A stretch of DNA of 64,000 nucleotides, taken from the NCBI GenBank assembly GCA_913058265.1, contig CAJXPQ010000004.1, positions 124,001 to 188,000 on the forward strand. Reading direction: 5' to 3'. This DNA is from an uncultured Oligoflexia bacterium (lineage in GTDB: Bacteria > Bdellovibrionota > Bacteriovoracia > Bacteriovoracales > Bacteriovoracaceae). Below are positions 13,842 to 21,994 of this stretch, one piece after another (position 1 is the first letter of the stretch; every line of letters begins with the position of its first letter). The notes beneath the pieces were generated by a model. It saw only the letters and a program-made list of their open reading frames with translations, was not told the origin of the DNA and made no database searches. A program made the position numbers and the translations under genes.

Positions 13842-13860
13842 TCATGTACTTTTTACATGA
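13842..13860. promoter_or_regulatory. perfect inverted repeat upstream of the DUF4956 operon
   Basis: TCATGTA and TACATGA form perfect 7-base arms around CTTTT, about 70 bases before the first gene of the operon. No T-run follows, so it is more like an operator for a dimeric regulator than a terminator. A smaller repeat, ACGC-TTC-GCGT, lies at 13878-13888. Confidence 0.4.
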
Positions 13861-13930
13861 AAAATCCGAATAGAATTACGCTTCGCGTTGATCGTGATAT
13901 TCTTTGGCTACTAAAAAAAGGGTTATAAAA

Positions 13931-14620
13931 ATGGAAATGTTAGACATCTCAAGCTTATTGACTACGGTTAAAAATCCAACAGTGATTTCGATTACTTATT
14001 CAATTTGCTTATCATTCATTCTATCTACATTGGTAGCAATGACTTATCAAAGAACCTTTCAAGGTTTGAGTTACTCAAGAAACTATATCCAAGCCTTAAT
14101 ATTAGCCTCAATCGTTGCAACAATTGCAATGCAAGCAATCGGTGATAACCTGGCCCGTGGTCTTGGGATGATGGGTGCTTTAGCGATTGTCAGGTTTAGA
14201 TCTTCACTGAAAGATCCCAAAGATATGATCTTTATATTTATGGCATTAGCAATAGGAATTTCATGTGGAGTTTACTCTTTCTCAATCGCGACAATCGGAA
14301 CTTTGGGTTTTAGTACATTTGCCTTTATCATTCATAGATTACCTTTCTCTAAGGAAAGTCATTTTGATGGTTTACTGAAATTTAACTTAGAGAATAGTTC
14401 AACAGATAAAGCCTCCCTAGAGAAAATATTGGATAAAAACTGCCAGAACTTTGCACTGATAACCTTACGTGAAGTTGGACAGGGTGCACGTCTAGATTAC
14501 GCATACCAAGTAAAACTAAGAGCAAAGAATACATATACTGAGTTCGTTGAGGAGTTACAAGGTTTAGAAACAATTAAAGGTGTTAACTTGTTATTACAAG
14601 AAAGCACAGTAGAGATATAG
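13931..14620 (+). CDS. DUF4956 inner-membrane protein
   Basis: The protein has 229 residues. Four or more membrane segments cover residues 12-140. The family signature GALAIVRFRSSLKDPKDM, in the MgtC-like region, lies between segments. The last 80 residues form a small soluble alpha/beta domain, ACT-like as in MgtC relatives. DUF4956 genes are often found beside VTC-domain genes, as here. The ATG at 13931 has AGGG 9 bases upstream; the frame could extend to a TTG at 13904. It is the first gene of a tightly packed operon with a fusion protein, an outer-membrane channel and a VTC protein. Function is not known. Confidence 0.85.
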   Translation: MEMLDISSLLTTVKNPTVISITYSICLSFILSTLVAMTYQRTFQGLSYSRNYIQALILASIVATIAMQAIGDNLARGLGMMGALAIVRFRSSLKDPKDMIFIFMALAIGISCGVYSFSIATIGTLGFSTFAFIIHRLPFSKESHFDGLLKFNLENSSTDKASLEKILDKNCQNFALITLREVGQGARLDYAYQVKLRAKNTYTEFVEELQGLETIKGVNLLLQESTVEI

Positions 14621-14628
14621 GGTTGAAT

Positions 14629-16404
14629 ATGAATTTAGAAATGACATTAAGAAAAGTACAAAGATCTCTTAGAGAAAACTTATTATTCTCATCTGTATGG
14701 ATCCTGGCCTTAATTACAGTTTTATTTGTTAATATAACTGCTAAGCGAAGCTATAACTTTGTAGGGATGACAGACTCTAAGGAAGATGTATTAAACACTA
14801 ACTATCCAGTTGTTATTAAGCATGTAAATGTGATCTCTGGGCAAAGCGTAGAGAAGGGTCAGTTGTTAGCAGAGCTGGAAAGACCAGAACTCGCGAAACA
14901 GATCAATCAAGTTTCTGGAGAGTTAGAAGAGTTAGTTCACCAATACGAACTTAATGAATCTTTGACTAAGAATTTAAAAAGTATCAAAAGAAAGCGTGCA
15001 AAAGGCGAAAATAGCCTCACGATTAAGATTAAAAGCTTAAAGCGTGACCTTGCACTTCTTAAGAATGAGCAAGATGAATTATTAGTCTTTGCAACTTTTG
15101 ATGGTCATATTGGATCAGTTAACTTTAAGGTCGGTGAGAATGTATCTCCATTTTCTCCAATCATGACAATGCATAAAAAGACACCAACATTTGTAAGAGG
15201 ATTTATTCACGAATCCATTTCACACGAAGTAACAGTTAATTCAGTTGTTCGTATTACAAATTTGAATAGTAATAACACACTTGAGACAGTGATCTCGAGT
15301 GTCGGAACAAGAATTGTTGAATTCCCAGTTCGTTTTCAAAAAGCTGGAGCTGAGGTTGTTTGGGGAAGAGAAGTTGTAATCAAGCTTCCTGAGAATAATG
15401 ATTTTCTTTTAGGAGAAAAGGTTTTTATGGAAGTTGTATCTTTCGCCACAAGATCTACTCGTGAAATTGCAAATACTATTATAGACGATATTAAAGTCGG
15501 ACTTAGAAGCATCTCATTGCCTAAAGAGTTATTAGGAAAAGTCGTTTTAGAGCCTTCTGGAGTTGTTTACTCTAGAAGTCATGGTAAATACCTTGTCATT
15601 AGTGATGATAATAATGCCGACAGACCTCTTGTGTATATGATGGACAGTGATGGAAATATTTCTTCTGAAGTATTATCTGTTGAAGGTCTAGATAAGATCA
15701 AGGACATGGAGGCAATGACTCAGGACGAAGATGGAAATATCTATATTGCATCATCACAATCTAAAAGTCGAAGTGGAAATATTGCTAAATCTAGAAGACT
15801 ACTAATTAAAGTACGAAAAGAAAAAAATAAATTAGTACTAGAAAGCAAAATTAAGCTGATCTCAAAACTAGATGCAATCGCAAAAAAGCATCCGAACCTT
15901 GAATGGGTTAAATTATTATCAAAAAATAGAAAATCTAAAGGTAAAAAATTTAGAATTGAAATGGACCTAGAGGGAATGGCAATAAAAGATAATGTTTTAT
16001 ATCTAGGACTTAGAAATAAAGTTGCGAGCAAGTCAGAAGTAGCAATCTTATCGATTACTGACATCCAGAAAACATTTGTTTCTGGTGATATAAAAGTTGA
16101 GCAAGTGGAACTGTGGTCAACAATAGAAACACCAATTAATTTCTCTGATGATAGATCTGAAGGGATCAGTGGTATTCAGATTATCAATAATGAAATGATT
16201 ATTGTAACCGCAAGTAACAAAGTTAAGAACAAAGGTCGTCTTCTTAAAGTTAGCATGGAAACTAGAAAGGTTACGGATCTTTTAGCAGAGTTTGATGGCA
16301 ATAGACCTGAGGGAATTGCTTTTAATGTAGATAAGCAAGTATACGTTATAACATTTGATGATAACACTGGTGAGAAATCATCAATGGTGGAGCTTAAACT
16401 ATAA
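14629..16404 (+). CDS. HlyD-type membrane fusion protein fused to DUF3616-like propeller
   Basis: The protein has 591 residues. Residues 20-38 form one membrane anchor. A split lipoyl domain follows (KHVNVISGQSVEKGQLL and FDGHIGSVNFKVGENV) around a coiled-coil hairpin, then a beta-barrel part to about residue 280. This is the architecture of periplasmic adaptors that link an inner-membrane partner to a TolC-type channel. Unusually, about 300 more residues follow with propeller-type repeats (DMEAMTQDEDGNIYIAS, DLEGMAIKDNVLYLGLR, RPEGIAFN), like DUF3616. The ATG at 14629 has AGGG six bases upstream. The stop overlaps the next ATG by one base. Confidence 0.8.
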   Translation: MNLEMTLRKVQRSLRENLLFSSVWILALITVLFVNITAKRSYNFVGMTDSKEDVLNTNYPVVIKHVNVISGQSVEKGQLLAELERPELAKQINQVSGELEELVHQYELNESLTKNLKSIKRKRAKGENSLTIKIKSLKRDLALLKNEQDELLVFATFDGHIGSVNFKVGENVSPFSPIMTMHKKTPTFVRGFIHESISHEVTVNSVVRITNLNSNNTLETVISSVGTRIVEFPVRFQKAGAEVVWGREVVIKLPENNDFLLGEKVFMEVVSFATRSTREIANTIIDDIKVGLRSISLPKELLGKVVLEPSGVVYSRSHGKYLVISDDNNADRPLVYMMDSDGNISSEVLSVEGLDKIKDMEAMTQDEDGNIYIASSQSKSRSGNIAKSRRLLIKVRKEKNKLVLESKIKLISKLDAIAKKHPNLEWVKLLSKNRKSKGKKFRIEMDLEGMAIKDNVLYLGLRNKVASKSEVAILSITDIQKTFVSGDIKVEQVELWSTIETPINFSDDRSEGISGIQIINNEMIIVTASNKVKNKGRLLKVSMETRKVTDLLAEFDGNRPEGIAFNVDKQVYVITFDDNTGEKSSMVELKL

Positions 16405-17708
16405 TGGAAAAGATCTTTATCTCAATCATTCTATTCACTTTCTCTATAAACTCTTTTGCTTTGAGTATTGATAAGGTTCTAAGTAGTTACCAGTTAGATG
16501 ATTCTAGCGAAGAGTTAGGTACAAATTATAGTATATTTAAAGAGGTTTCATTTAGGTATGGACAAGAAAGTAAGACACAAGAGAGTTCAAAAGTAAGAAA
16601 AGATCTGACTGGCTCAGATGCTAGGGAATTTTCTGATAAAGATGGTGAGGAAACAGCAATGGATCTTTCATTGCGTTTTTCTCTTAATGCTTTTGATAAT
16701 TATAAAAATAAGTGGGAGTTGGCAAAAGTTCAAAATCAAAGACTTAATAAAGTAAAGTTAGAGCAACAGAGCCTTGAATTATCTGTTATTTATAAAACAT
16801 ATATTAACCTACACTTTGGGTTACAAGAAAGAGATAAATTGAAGAACCTCTTAGAGACTCATGAAGATGCAGCAAAAGTTAGCAAGGTTCTCTTAAAGAA
16901 AGGTAAGCTCTTTATAACAGATGTTATTACAGCGGAAAAAAAGATAACTGAAACATTAAGTCTGTTGAGAGTTAAAGAAGAAGAGGTTGAGTTGACTAAA
17001 AAAATGCTTTCAAAGTTAACTGGATTGCCTATTAACGAAAAATCAATGTCTACTAAGAATAAATTTATTAATGTTAATAAAATTGTAAGATTAATTAAGA
17101 AATCACCAAAACTATCATTTTCTAATCTAGAAGTGAAAAAAGCTCAACTAGACTATGAAATAGAGAAAGCAGAAGCTAGTCAGATTGTAGATTTTATTGA
17201 GTTTTCTAGATCAACAAGTTTTGGAACAGATGAGACTTTGAATAAAACAGAAGACGAAAGAGATAACTCTGATTTCGATAAGGCAAGTTTGGGCTTCAAA
17301 ATAGGCTTTAAAATACCATTTTTCACTGATAAATCTAGAATGCACGAGAAAAGAATAAATAAAATGCGTAAAGAGCATGAGGCAAAGATGGCCAATCAAG
17401 CAAGTACTGAAGAGTTAGGAGAGATACAATCAGATATAATTGGACAGGTCCAAGAACTTAAAAGTTTACTTGGTTCATCTTATTTGAAGATGACGAAGAA
17501 GTATTTACGTATATATAAAAATTCTAAGGGTGTTTCACCATTTAGATTATTGCAGCTAAGAAGTGTACTTACTGAAACCGAAATTAAACAAGCTCAATTA
17601 GAAAAAGAAATTTATAGTATGTATATAAGCTTTCTTGAAACAAGAGGAAGTCTTGTTCGGAACCAGAAGACAAACGTTCTATCACCAAAATTCAGAGGAG
17701 AAGTTTAA
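16404..17708 (+). CDS. TolC-like outer membrane channel protein
   Basis: The protein has 434 residues. It starts with a signal peptide (MEKIFISIILFTFSINSFA). The mature part is made of two long helical halves with intervening strands, the pattern of outer membrane efflux proteins (for example VIYKTYINLHFGLQERDKL and VSKVLLKKGKLFITDVITAEK). TolC-type trimers form a barrel in the outer membrane with a periplasmic tunnel. The length is somewhat short for the family. One-base overlaps with both flanking genes tie it to the fusion protein and the VTC gene, so it most likely serves this one assembly. No ABC or RND transporter is present in the operon. Confidence 0.8.
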   Translation: MEKIFISIILFTFSINSFALSIDKVLSSYQLDDSSEELGTNYSIFKEVSFRYGQESKTQESSKVRKDLTGSDAREFSDKDGEETAMDLSLRFSLNAFDNYKNKWELAKVQNQRLNKVKLEQQSLELSVIYKTYINLHFGLQERDKLKNLLETHEDAAKVSKVLLKKGKLFITDVITAEKKITETLSLLRVKEEEVELTKKMLSKLTGLPINEKSMSTKNKFINVNKIVRLIKKSPKLSFSNLEVKKAQLDYEIEKAEASQIVDFIEFSRSTSFGTDETLNKTEDERDNSDFDKASLGFKIGFKIPFFTDKSRMHEKRINKMRKEHEAKMANQASTEELGEIQSDIIGQVQELKSLLGSSYLKMTKKYLRIYKNSKGVSPFRLLQLRSVLTETEIKQAQLEKEIYSMYISFLETRGSLVRNQKTNVLSPKFRGEV

Positions 17709-18529
17709 TGAGTGCTTTTAACTCCCCATTATTATTCGAGAGATATGAATTGAAATTTTTAGTTCCTTTTGACATGGTCGAAGATATTTCAAATTTTGTA
17801 GAAATTTTTTGTGAGCTTGACCCATTTTCTGCCAGAGAGCCAGATAACTTTTATAAAGTTAATAATATATACTTGGATTCACCAAATTACTTATTCTTAG
17901 AGAGAAGACTAGCGGGTATTGATCACCGTTTTAACATGAGAATTAGAAGTTATGGAGATGATCCTATCTTCCCTTATTTTTGTGAAGTTAAACATAAGAC
18001 CGCAGGAGTTGTAAAAAAGAAAAGGGCCAAGATATATGAAGACAACTGGGCCGAAACATTTCAAAATAAGCATATTATGAGTGATAACGGGAAAGTTTGG
18101 TCTGACCAAGAGGATTATAAGGATCACTTTCTACGTTTGGCCTATGTACATAATATTGAACCAAAAATCTTTACTCAATATAGACGTAAAGCCTATGCTT
18201 CTGTGATTGATGATTACGCACGAGTTACATTTGACAGAGATCTTAGGTACCAAAGACGTGATACTTATGACATGAGTCCTGTTGAGTCTAAGTTATCTCA
18301 TTATGATAATCCTACAAAATTTTATGAAGAGAATGATGTCATTCTTGAATTGAAGTGTACTACTAATGTACCTAAGTGGTTCATTGATATGATTAGCTAT
18401 TTTAATTTAAGTCGAACGAGCTTCTCTAAGTATGTCACAGGAATTCAAGAGGTGATTGAAGATAATAGACCATATATTCCTGATAGAGTTCTTTGTAATT
18501 CTGCACAGTTAGATTCCGCATATATGTAG
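17708..18529 (+). CDS. VTC-domain protein, putative polyphosphate polymerase
   Basis: The 273-residue protein is a single VTC domain, the triphosphate-tunnel fold that makes polyphosphate from ATP in the yeast VTC complex. Tunnel residues expected from that family are present: E11-x-x-E14-x-K16, R78-I-R80, E93-V-K95, a K103-K-K-R106 cluster, R159/R160, R172-x-T-F-D-R, E214-L-K216 and S240-K241-Y. No signal peptide or membrane segment is seen, so it is cytoplasmic. It is coupled by one-base overlap to the TolC-like gene and shares an operon with a DUF4956 membrane protein. Catalytic activity is inferred from conserved residues only. Confidence 0.85.
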   Translation: MSAFNSPLLFERYELKFLVPFDMVEDISNFVEIFCELDPFSAREPDNFYKVNNIYLDSPNYLFLERRLAGIDHRFNMRIRSYGDDPIFPYFCEVKHKTAGVVKKKRAKIYEDNWAETFQNKHIMSDNGKVWSDQEDYKDHFLRLAYVHNIEPKIFTQYRRKAYASVIDDYARVTFDRDLRYQRRDTYDMSPVESKLSHYDNPTKFYEENDVILELKCTTNVPKWFIDMISYFNLSRTSFSKYVTGIQEVIEDNRPYIPDRVLCNSAQLDSAYM

Positions 18530-18664
18530 TTGGTACACTACTTGCTTCTATAATACCTAGTTAGTTAAATTTGTTAATTAAAACGAAGGCTTAGGTTATC
18601 TATTAACTTAGATAATTGTCTAAAATGTAGACAGTTCACCTGTGGCCTAACACTGAGGGTTTAT

Positions 18665-21600
18665 ATGAGAGCGACTATTATCTTGTTATTCATTTTTCTT
18701 GTAAAGAACACATTCGCTGTTGAATTTCATTCTGAAAGTATAAATAAGCAAATTGAAAATACATTTCTTGCGGAAGACTTTACTCTTGATAGAAAAAAAG
18801 TGAAACAATTTAAAGCTGAAATAAAAAAACGTAGAAATGAATTAACAAACTCTATCGTAACAAGTGAAGTCTTATTAGATGATAAATCCGAGAAAAAAGC
18901 TAAGAAGAAAGCGAAAAAAGAAACTGAGATTTTTACTTATAATCTCATTCTTGATTATATTAGAGAGTTGAAGAGGCTTGATAGTGAAAGTGAAGTCAGG
19001 CTTATAGCACAAAAAATAATTGACCTAGATTTTGCTGTAAAAGTTTCTGGTAGAGAGAATATCGTCTCAAAAAGTGCTAAGACTGTCTTAGAAGTCATAA
19101 GGGAGCGAAGTGTACTTAAGCAAACTGGTCCCGAGGGTGAGGCGAGTAATCTAATCGATCCTCATACTGGTGATTATTTTTCTCAGACGGGACTTAAAGA
19201 GCTTCAAACTTCAGACTTTGATATCTCAACTTTAGAGCCACATGCACAAAGTTCTTTCTGGACTAATCCTGGTGATATCTCAAAAATTGATATTGAATCA
19301 AACTATATGGGGCAGAATAAACTCTACGGTGATATGGATATCAAATTTCCAAACCACTTTGGTGTATTTAAAAAAGTTAGAAAGACACAATCAAAGCCTA
19401 AGATTGATATTCTTGCAGATATAGACGGTAAAGAAGTAAAGTTTAAAATAAAAATCGGTTCAGAAATGCACTCTGAGGCGACTGCGGGGGCCTTACTTTC
19501 TGCTCTTGGATTTCACACTGACATTACTAAGTATCAAAAAGATTTTAAAATGCTTCTTCCTGATGGGTTGACTCTTAGAGAACTCAAAAGAGAGTGGTAT
19601 TCCTATTTCTCTGGTTGGGACTTTGATAAGTATATTTCTGAACATGGAATTGGACTTGATGGAAACGAGTATGTTGTTTTTAGAGAGGTCCTAATTGAAA
19701 CCAAACCTAAGGATATTGTAAGAGTTGGTCCTTGGGCTTACGGATCAAATGGGCATAGAGCTCTGAGAGAAGTTCGAGGTCTATTCTTGTTTAATGTGTG
19801 GGTTGCTAATAATGATTTAAAAGAATTTGGTAATAATAAACTAGCTTTAAAAGAAGCTGATGACGGATTTGAAGTCTTTAAATATCAACATGACCTGGGC
19901 TTTGCATTTGGGCGAATTTCCCGTGAGAAACCATCAGAGTATGCTTGGGATATTGTTAAATCCACAAGTAATAAAAAAGTGAAGCTTAATTTTTGGAGCT
20001 TTCAGCCTAATTCAGGATTTGAGCATGTCACATATTCTGATTCACGTTGGATGATCAGGAAAATGGCTGAACTTACCAGAGATCAAATTGAGAAAGCTGT
20101 TGAGCTTGGGGGCTGGCCTAAAGAGGTAGGAATGCTTTTGGTTGAAAAAATGATTAGCAGAAGAAACCAGCTTGTTAGTGCCTTCGGTTTAGAAGAAGAA
20201 GTTGGCCTACTTGAGTTTGATCGACATATAACAACAGATAATAAAATTTTAGTGGATGGTAATCTTATTCAAACTGAATTTGAAGGATATACTCAGGACT
20301 ATGGGAATGAGATTAGCTCTCTTCTTGAAAATGTGAAAGAGAGCGTGTTGCAATACGCTGCCAAAGCAGTGATTCTTGGTACATCAAATTTTGACTCAAT
20401 TATTATTGAACCTAAAGATATTGGTTTTGATTCATCGATTATTACTGAGTTAGAGCTTTCAATTGATAGAGATATTACAAAGAATTTAGAACAAACTGGT
20501 CGAGATGATAACTTCTTAGTTGAAGATGTATTAAGAGTTAGGATTGCTCTTGGTGTAGGGGCAATCCTTAGAGGTAAGGTTAATTATATTAAAGAATATC
20601 GTCTTGTATATCCAGTTAAAACAAAGTTGGAGGGAGTTGTAAATAATGGTTTCATTGTTAATGCTCTTCTCCCACTCCATGTGAGAAAGGCCAAGATGCC
20701 TGATAGTTATGTGTTAATTCTGAAGGATTCATTCGAAGGAACTGCGGAGTTATTAGTTGAAGATTTATCTATGCCAGTTGCTTTTGGAATTGAAAGTGGT
20801 CAAGGTTTTCTAAGTCAAACCGTTATAAGTCGTAAGGCGAATTCATACACTGTATATAAGGATGTTTCACCATATAAGGTTTTATATAAAACACTTTATG
20901 CTTCATTGAAAATTCTAAGAATCCCTGTTTGGTGGGCGACTGATATGTCAGGTGTCCTAGGTAGACAAATTTATAAAGTGAACCTAGATGAAGGGAGTCG
21001 TGAAAGTAAATTGAAAGCTCTAGATCAAGTCTTAATTTATTCTGATCTTTATGCTCTGGATGGACTTGCTGTGAAAACAAACTTAACTGATAGTTATGTC
21101 TTAGAAAGGTCTCAGTTAAATTTTTTAAATTTATTTAAACGAGATTATAACCGTAGAGTAGATAAAATTAATGAAGTCATTTATGAGAAAAATGGTGATT
21201 TAGATGAAGAATTAGATACATTACAGGCCGTGGTCGATAAGAAGAACGAATGGAGTTTTCTTGGGGACGGAGAAGAGAAGAGGCGCCGCTACCGCTTAAA
21301 TGGATCTAAACAAGCCGACGGCACTATCAAGAATCCATACCTTGATGTGAGATTTGAGATAAATGATTTCCATACAAAGACAGTTGAGTTATCAGAAGGG
21401 TATATACCCTTTATTAATAAGGCCGCACTTGATAAAGACTTTATCGAGTTTTCTCCAGAGCTACATACCCGAAATGACTTGTGGGGACATATAACTGTAA
21501 ACGTCCACATGATGTATAATAAGGACGCTTTGGATAAAATATTAGTAACACCTATTAGTGTCTTTAATGAATTAATGGCTAAAAGATCAGATCTGTCTGC

Positions 21601-21994
21601 TGAGCTTTGGGGCACAAAAAATAATTATAAGAACTATACAGGTCGAGTTAAAGAGATATTACGTCGGTATCAACAATTCATAAAACATTTAACGCTAGCT
21701 CAGCAAGCGGTGAGTGAGAGTGACATGTATATTCATTTAATAGATGCTATTGACCATTCAATATGGCGAGACACCCACAGTTTTGACACGGTTTTACTGC
21801 AAACTATAAATAATCTTGTTGGTGTCGATAATTACTATGTAAAAGGAATTGTTTCTATGCCAGAGAATAAAGAAATGAGACTTCCTGCAAAGGCTCCACT
21901 CGTAAATCTACGTAATAAAGATCTAAAAAAGAAACTAGAATTTAAAGAATTTGATTTTGATAATGCTGAAGAAATTTGGGAAGTCTTTCACTAA
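18665..21994 (+). CDS. large secreted protein with possible kinase-like segment
   Basis: The 1109-residue protein has a signal peptide ending near TFA-VEF and is otherwise soluble. Residues 20-110 are charged and helical. Around residues 360-412 the pattern LREVRGLFLFNVWVANND then GNNKLAL then FKYQHDLGFAFG recalls atypical secreted kinases of the CotH/FAM20 kind, which use spaced Asp/Asn residues and a D-x-G. CotH proteins are known partners of DUF4956 and VTC genes, which supports the idea, but the match is weak. The remainder has beta-rich segments of no recognised family. GAGGG before the ATG supports the start. A 135-base gap separates it from the VTC gene. Confidence 0.7.
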   Translation: MRATIILLFIFLVKNTFAVEFHSESINKQIENTFLAEDFTLDRKKVKQFKAEIKKRRNELTNSIVTSEVLLDDKSEKKAKKKAKKETEIFTYNLILDYIRELKRLDSESEVRLIAQKIIDLDFAVKVSGRENIVSKSAKTVLEVIRERSVLKQTGPEGEASNLIDPHTGDYFSQTGLKELQTSDFDISTLEPHAQSSFWTNPGDISKIDIESNYMGQNKLYGDMDIKFPNHFGVFKKVRKTQSKPKIDILADIDGKEVKFKIKIGSEMHSEATAGALLSALGFHTDITKYQKDFKMLLPDGLTLRELKREWYSYFSGWDFDKYISEHGIGLDGNEYVVFREVLIETKPKDIVRVGPWAYGSNGHRALREVRGLFLFNVWVANNDLKEFGNNKLALKEADDGFEVFKYQHDLGFAFGRISREKPSEYAWDIVKSTSNKKVKLNFWSFQPNSGFEHVTYSDSRWMIRKMAELTRDQIEKAVELGGWPKEVGMLLVEKMISRRNQLVSAFGLEEEVGLLEFDRHITTDNKILVDGNLIQTEFEGYTQDYGNEISSLLENVKESVLQYAAKAVILGTSNFDSIIIEPKDIGFDSSIITELELSIDRDITKNLEQTGRDDNFLVEDVLRVRIALGVGAILRGKVNYIKEYRLVYPVKTKLEGVVNNGFIVNALLPLHVRKAKMPDSYVLILKDSFEGTAELLVEDLSMPVAFGIESGQGFLSQTVISRKANSYTVYKDVSPYKVLYKTLYASLKILRIPVWWATDMSGVLGRQIYKVNLDEGSRESKLKALDQVLIYSDLYALDGLAVKTNLTDSYVLERSQLNFLNLFKRDYNRRVDKINEVIYEKNGDLDEELDTLQAVVDKKNEWSFLGDGEEKRRRYRLNGSKQADGTIKNPYLDVRFEINDFHTKTVELSEGYIPFINKAALDKDFIEFSPELHTRNDLWGHITVNVHMMYNKDALDKILVTPISVFNELMAKRSDLSAELWGTKNNYKNYTGRVKEILRRYQQFIKHLTLAQQAVSESDMYIHLIDAIDHSIWRDTHSFDTVLLQTINNLVGVDNYYVKGIVSMPENKEMRLPAKAPLVNLRNKDLKKKLEFKEFDFDNAEEIWEVFH

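Follow-up and report, generated by a model that had tools for sequence, protein, structure and literature searches.

A conserved DUF4956-adaptor-channel-VTC gene unit in Bdellovibrionota and other phyla, with a proposed role in polyphosphate export

The DNA analysed here is a 64,000-nucleotide stretch of an uncultured Oligoflexia bacterium of the Bacteriovoracaceae (GenBank assembly GCA_913058265.1, contig CAJXPQ010000004.1, positions 124,001 to 188,000; hereafter the window, with positions counted from its first letter). It carries genes for a DUF4956 inner-membrane protein, a MacA/HlyD-type periplasmic adaptor, a TolC-like outer-membrane channel and a VTC-domain protein, followed by a gene for a large secreted protein that we call KIN. 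We found that the first four genes are one conserved gene unit. This cassette is a variant of the already noted association of CotH, polyphosphate (polyP) polymerase and DUF4956 (PMC7112168). VTC and CotH genes have also been noted in a Clostridium perfringens locus (PMC2879425). The four-gene combination itself appears to be previously undescribed, and a search limited to the open-access literature returned no paper joining polyphosphate, TolC, HlyD and VTC, or VTC-DUF4956 with an adaptor and a channel. The best reading of the cassette is a diderm version of the CotH-polyP polymerase-DUF4956 set with an added envelope conduit. Whether the VTC product is exported through a conduit made of DUF4956, adaptor and channel is, in our judgement, evenly balanced.

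Recurrence and layout of the four-gene cassette

One genome per species was scanned with an alignment of operon-type DUF4956 as the query, which gave 35 loci with named records, and the gene contents of these loci were tallied by hand from gene maps. The contig ended at DUF4956 in four of them; in all the others (31/31) the adaptor adjoined DUF4956, and the channel came next wherever the contig continued. Homologous loci commonly missing the adaptor or channel, which the initial annotation had named as evidence that would speak against a polyP synthesis and export assembly, were thus not what the scan returned. Of the 26 loci that could be judged, 21 had VTC after the channel, counting L129, where it lies at the expected place. 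The VTC-bearing loci belonged to Bdellovibrionota (Halobacteriovorax, Bdellovibrio and Pseudobdellovibrio), Desulfobacterota (Desulfamplus and Desulfobacteraceae), Fibrobacterota (Chitinispirillaceae and Fibrobacter) and Sumerlaeota. Nine of the 35 loci are the same contigs as were sampled from the window's family (see below), so the two locus samples are not independent.

The Bdellovibrio family gave a similar picture. Of its 66 genomes, 21 had operon-type DUF4956, and 20 of these also had operon-type VTC; in the single genome with DUF4956 and no VTC (L142), the contig stops inside the channel gene. Weak remote hits to both proteins were obtained in 2 genomes, and neither was found in the remaining 43. 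Nineteen of the 20 genomes have DUF4956 and VTC on a single contig, separated by 2.8-3.1 kb when coordinates were subtracted, which is the room that the adaptor and channel need. Gain or loss of DUF4956 in this family thus goes with gain or loss of VTC. The set is more than a chance arrangement, given its return in several phyla and its near-perfect co-occurrence across the Bdellovibrio family. The initial annotation had proposed a five-gene neighbourhood; the four-gene part recurs, and the fifth position is held by KIN or by CotH and is sometimes occupied by neither. When 291 genomes from across the phylum were sampled, a full-length adaptor profile matched 37, some of them in the propeller part only. 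In three Chitinispirillaceae cassettes (L134, L136 and L138) we observed two consecutive genes for HlyD-type adaptors.

In the window, the four genes and KIN all lie on the + strand between 13932 and 21994, with intergenic gaps of 2, -1, -1 and 135 bases, and the tight order of the first four that had been described earlier was confirmed. The DUF4956 open reading frame (ORF) was first called at 13904-14620. Because operon-type homologues begin MxMLD, the ATG at 13932 is the most likely start, giving a protein of about 229 residues (13932..14620). The start of 13842 given in the initial annotation had to be abandoned, as it falls outside the DUF4956 gene, at a short inverted repeat. This 6-bp repeat (CATGTA-CTTTT-TACATG, 13843..13859, no strand assigned), read from the sequence, is a putative regulatory site and overlaps the start of a 23-codon ORF (13857-13928) just before DUF4956. 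No counterpart of this ORF was evident upstream of homologous operons, and scans for promoters and terminators returned no signal that stood out against shuffled sequences.

The VTC protein and the envelope components

The VTC-domain protein (17708..18529, +, 273 residues) matched PF09359 with an E-value of 8.7e-41, passing the cut-off, over residues 12-248, and its profile matched yeast Vtc4 at 6.1e-5. The protein consists of a TTM tunnel domain alone, with no hydrophobic segment, no SPX domain and no membrane helices of its own. The residues that we take to be catalytic in Vtc4 (K200, R264, R266, K281, K294, R361, E426, S457 and K458, among which R264, R266, E426 and K458 were confirmed from papers) had invariant equivalents in 30 of 30 cassette-type VTC proteins, the matching residues in the window being K16, R78, R80, K95, K104, R172, E214, S240 and K241. 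The Vtc4 register was taken from the profile alignment, where an E426N mutant chain is visible as a check; the K200 equivalent falls beyond the aligned region and was placed by the beta-1 motif. Nearly all Vtc4 active-site residues are thus kept and the polymerase-type site is intact, in agreement with the earlier annotation of a VTC polymerase. Mutation of R264, R266 and E426 has been used to inactivate VTC (PMC9911596). An acidic patch, whose glutamates are needed by two-metal TTM phosphatases, distinguishes TTM triphosphatases from polymerases, and Vtc4 has basic residues there (PMC4641920). We found that three of the four patch positions are basic in the window protein (R12, R106 and K216, the assignment of R106 being inferred).

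A search for PPK1 (PF02503) found none in the nearly complete genome of the window or in five relatives that carry the cassette. PPK1 was present in the Bdellovibrio genomes tested, and VTC is therefore not everywhere a simple substitute for PPK1. A VTC DNA search of the E. coli genome gave zero matches.

DUF4956 (PF16316, 4.1e-14) has four hydrophobic segments and a soluble C-terminal part by hydropathy, and its RFR motif is invariant. It remotely resembles MgtC/SapB (NCBIfam PRK09977, 8e-4, below its cut-off). Its sole match in the PDB, multicystatin, was judged implausible and set aside. The adaptor (14623..16404, +, 593 residues) has one N-terminal hydrophobic segment and matched the Pfam families HlyD_D23 (8.5e-6) and HlyD_3 (6.6e-5), with an RND_mfp match of 7.8e-13 that is below the cut-off; against the PDB its profile found MacA (4dk0) at 4.2e-8. 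Its C-terminal extension (approximately 15460..16401, +) is beta-propeller-like, of the Phytase-like or SdiA-regulated YjiK class, a similarity that is weak in the window protein (SdiA-regulated 2.3e-4, Phytase-like 6.4e-4, and YjiK 3qqz in the PDB at an E-value of only 0.13); a Phytase-like match was obtained in 7 of 13 homologous adaptors, the best at 1.3e-5. The channel (16404..17708, +, 434 residues) belongs to the OEP family (PF02321, 6.4e-6; NodT and TolC models below cut-off) and has a signal-like N terminus.

The set thus contains both efflux-type parts, a periplasmic adaptor and an OEP/TolC channel. No dedicated inner-membrane pump of the ABC, RND or MFS type adjoined the window operon when its ORFs and Pfam matches were inspected, and none was recurrent at related loci; the lack of an ABC or RND pump noted in the initial annotation is borne out, and extends to MFS. 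A 1249-aa full-length ABC exporter was seen once, after one cassette (L131, 13712-17461). The cassette resembles MacAB-TolC and other tripartite efflux systems in its MacA-like adaptor and its channel, but differs from them in having no pump, in an adaptor that often carries a propeller, and in having DUF4956 and VTC as partners. The presence of efflux families and the remote MgtC/SapB resemblance would suit small-molecule or ion efflux or sensing, with an MgtC-like DUF4956 regulator or transporter working with the adaptor and channel while VTC produces or detects a small phosphorylated signal instead of a polymer. However, the VTC protein has the polymerase-type set of basic residues, and the two distinct families of secreted kinases nearby (described below) fit phosphate transfer better than drug efflux. 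We regard this explanation as quite unlikely.

Secreted kinase-like proteins beside the cassette

KIN (18665..21994, +) is an 1109-aa protein with a Sec-like signal peptide. It matched no Pfam family, and its sequence found nothing in the PDB. The full-length model was poor (pLDDT 63) and gave no match at E <= 1e-3; kinases and outer-membrane barrels headed its list of non-significant matches. When residues 150-540 (19112..20284, +) were modelled alone, AF2 returned a pLDDT of 87.1 and a pTM of 0.90, and all 50 PDB matches listed by Foldseek were protein or lipid kinases, with probabilities up to 0.98; among the matches listed none reached E <= 1e-3, the best being 2.1e-3. Motif residues come in kinase order: K261/K263 in beta-3, E267/E271 ahead of and within the helix that follows, then D384-x-K386..N390, and lastly D410-x-G412. 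They were kept in 24-30 sequences out of the roughly 30 with coverage at these positions. The N-terminal domain of KIN is therefore a predicted kinase-like fold. Among the matches listed, those at the top were actin-fragmin kinase and the HipA-like Helicobacter CtkA (Foldseek probability 0.91-0.98, E-values of 2e-3 to 1e-2, about 10% identity, TM-scores of 0.29-0.50). KIN differs from both in having a Sec-like signal and, as its C-terminal half, 570 residues rich in beta structure.

KIN belongs to a secreted, multi-copy family: of the 115 family genomes sampled, 93 have at least a partial relative. Of the 66 best matches, 11 lay within 15 kb of a VTC gene, where 0.6 were expected, and relatives also occur far from the cassette. 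The stretch at residues 454-547 (window 20024-20305, with the pattern TYADARWMxRKxAxLTRxQI...RRNQLVxAFxLE) matches proteins of roughly 1000-1100 residues in most family genomes and, judged from these sequences, probably marks a widespread uncharacterised family of large proteins. The beta-rich half (residues 576-1108) is also found as stand-alone signal-bearing proteins of roughly 600 residues away from VTC (L036-L038).

CotH-type kinases, with matches up to 6.5e-66, were found beside cassettes of Desulfobacterota, Fibrobacterota and Sumerlaeota, and beside one Bacteroidota locus without VTC. Proteins with lamin-tail domains often accompany CotH at those cassettes; at four Fibrobacterota loci (L134, L138, L144 and L146) they were observed directly 3' of the cassette and are candidate substrates or surface partners of the kinase. 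KIN was also considered as a CotH homologue (PF08757) and rejected: Pfam found no match, and although profile-profile alignment with hhalign paired the D..N..D-x-x-x-FG regions of the two, the E-values of 0.04-0.11 were not significant, and only the analogy is kept. No CotH was present in the window cluster, and the genome's single CotH match falls at a second locus on another contig (L025, contig C5, 22000-41000), where VTC, DUF4956 and CotH (E-values 5e-12 and 1.6e-13) occur with adaptor and channel absent. Among 36 VTC or DUF4956 loci in the window's family, 16 had CotH, 11 had KIN, 9 had neither and none had both (Fisher p 2.8e-4, ignoring shared ancestry and with imperfect gene calling at contig ends). 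KIN takes the place that is held by a secreted CotH kinase in other phyla and at the second locus of this genome. Cassette loci are thus often flanked by a secreted kinase-like protein, which is KIN in the window's family and CotH in other phyla.

These results changed the role of the 1109-aa protein, which had been listed as a part of the export assembly: it is a kinase-like secreted protein that is no part of the conduit, swaps with CotH and is missing from some complete Bdellovibrio cassettes. HlyD/TolC pairs function in type I secretion, and the adjacent position of the genes would be in keeping with an adaptor and channel that export KIN itself by a type I-like route. N-terminal hydrophobic stretches were found in 30 of 35 KIN and 24 of 26 CotH sequences, the exceptions being mostly cut sequences. 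Type I secretion of KIN was rejected because of these Sec-like signals and the absence of an ABC exporter from the set. Cassettes in genomes without KIN or CotH, and KIN relatives far from the cassette, also argue against such a route, which we consider very improbable.

The second locus bears on another explanation, in which the cassette works on an exopolysaccharide or matrix polymer: VTC, DUF4956 and CotH or KIN would modify or regulate it, and the adaptor and channel would export the polymer or a precursor in place of polyP. Neighbours of that locus, identified by reading their sequences, resemble UDP-glucose dehydrogenase, a Wzy-like ligase/polymerase and an undecaprenyl-phosphate sugar(-1-P) transferase. 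In Gram-positives, genes for CotH, polyP polymerase and DUF4956, together with DUF4832, accompany Pel clusters as accessory genes whose function is unproven (PMC7112168). Such a role is unlikely, as beside the four-gene cassette itself no glycosyltransferase or polysaccharide genes were recognised in the window or in Bdellovibrio, and the adaptor and channel are MacA- and TolC-like, not of the Wza exporter type. VTC and DUF4956 are encoded together in the window cluster as they are in the CotH-polyP polymerase-DUF4956 set. The Pel-cluster set shares the VTC and DUF4956 families and a kinase of the CotH type with the loci described here, but it has no adaptor or TolC-like channel, whereas the window cassette has no Pel genes and has KIN in place of CotH.

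A proposed route for polyphosphate export

We infer polyP synthesis, its transport and the role of DUF4956 as a channel by analogy with the eukaryotic VTC complex (Vtc1/Vtc3/Vtc4), which couples polyP synthesis in the cytosol to translocation (PMC9911596). Both systems have a TTM tunnel domain with the Vtc4 catalytic residues, and the same coupling of synthesis to membrane passage is proposed for the cassette. As cassette VTC lacks SPX and membrane helices, DUF4956 would have to supply the channel, and the target would be the exterior of a two-membrane cell. In the route that we propose, the cytosolic VTC domain would polymerise phosphate from ATP and the growing chain would be threaded through DUF4956, just as in eukaryotes it passes through the membrane helices of VTC itself. 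DUF4956 would be docked to the TolC-like channel by the MacA-like adaptor, whose propeller is in the periplasm, and the chain would leave the cell through that channel. Chain growth would provide the drive, with no separate pump. The secreted kinase-like protein would act beyond the cytoplasm, and its target would be either the chain after export or molecules of the surface or matrix that receive phosphate. A more specific version, in which polymerisation drives a pump-less exporter and the exported chain or its phosphate is the donor for secreted CotH or KIN, is a long shot; if true, it would explain how a kinase works outside the cell, where ATP is scarce.

Several observations weigh against polyP export by this route. 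Equivalents of Vtc4 R373 and K455 are not conserved in cassette-type VTC, and E14 retains one acidic-patch glutamate that Vtc4 reportedly lacks. Since the other three patch positions are basic, a polymerase is the better reading of the VTC sequence than a triphosphatase, short of proof. Bacteroidota loci and one same-genus genome have DUF4956, adaptor and channel with VTC not adjoining, and the metagenome-assembled genome of L152, which is of this type, is without any VTC. At four loci of this arrangement (L149, L153, L154 and L125), VTC was observed elsewhere in the genome. Conversely, VTC-DUF4956 pairs without adaptor or channel exist, in the window genome included, and the conduit is therefore not required for the pair to be useful. 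Finally, B. bacteriovorus kdesi carries the cassette in a genome where CotH and KIN were undetected at the thresholds used, so a kinase-like partner is not obligatory.

Bacterial polyP is usually regarded as a reserve that PPK builds up inside the cell. A conserved unit linking a VTC-type polymerase with a conduit across both membranes would offer a genetic explanation for polyP, or some phosphate-linked product, outside Gram-negative cells, and the cassette would represent tripartite export of a kind without a dedicated pump. The finding bears on the roles of bacterial VTC and DUF4956, on their association with CotH and on the phosphate source of secreted kinases. The cassette is carried by several genomes of Bdellovibrio, a group that is culturable and genetically tractable.

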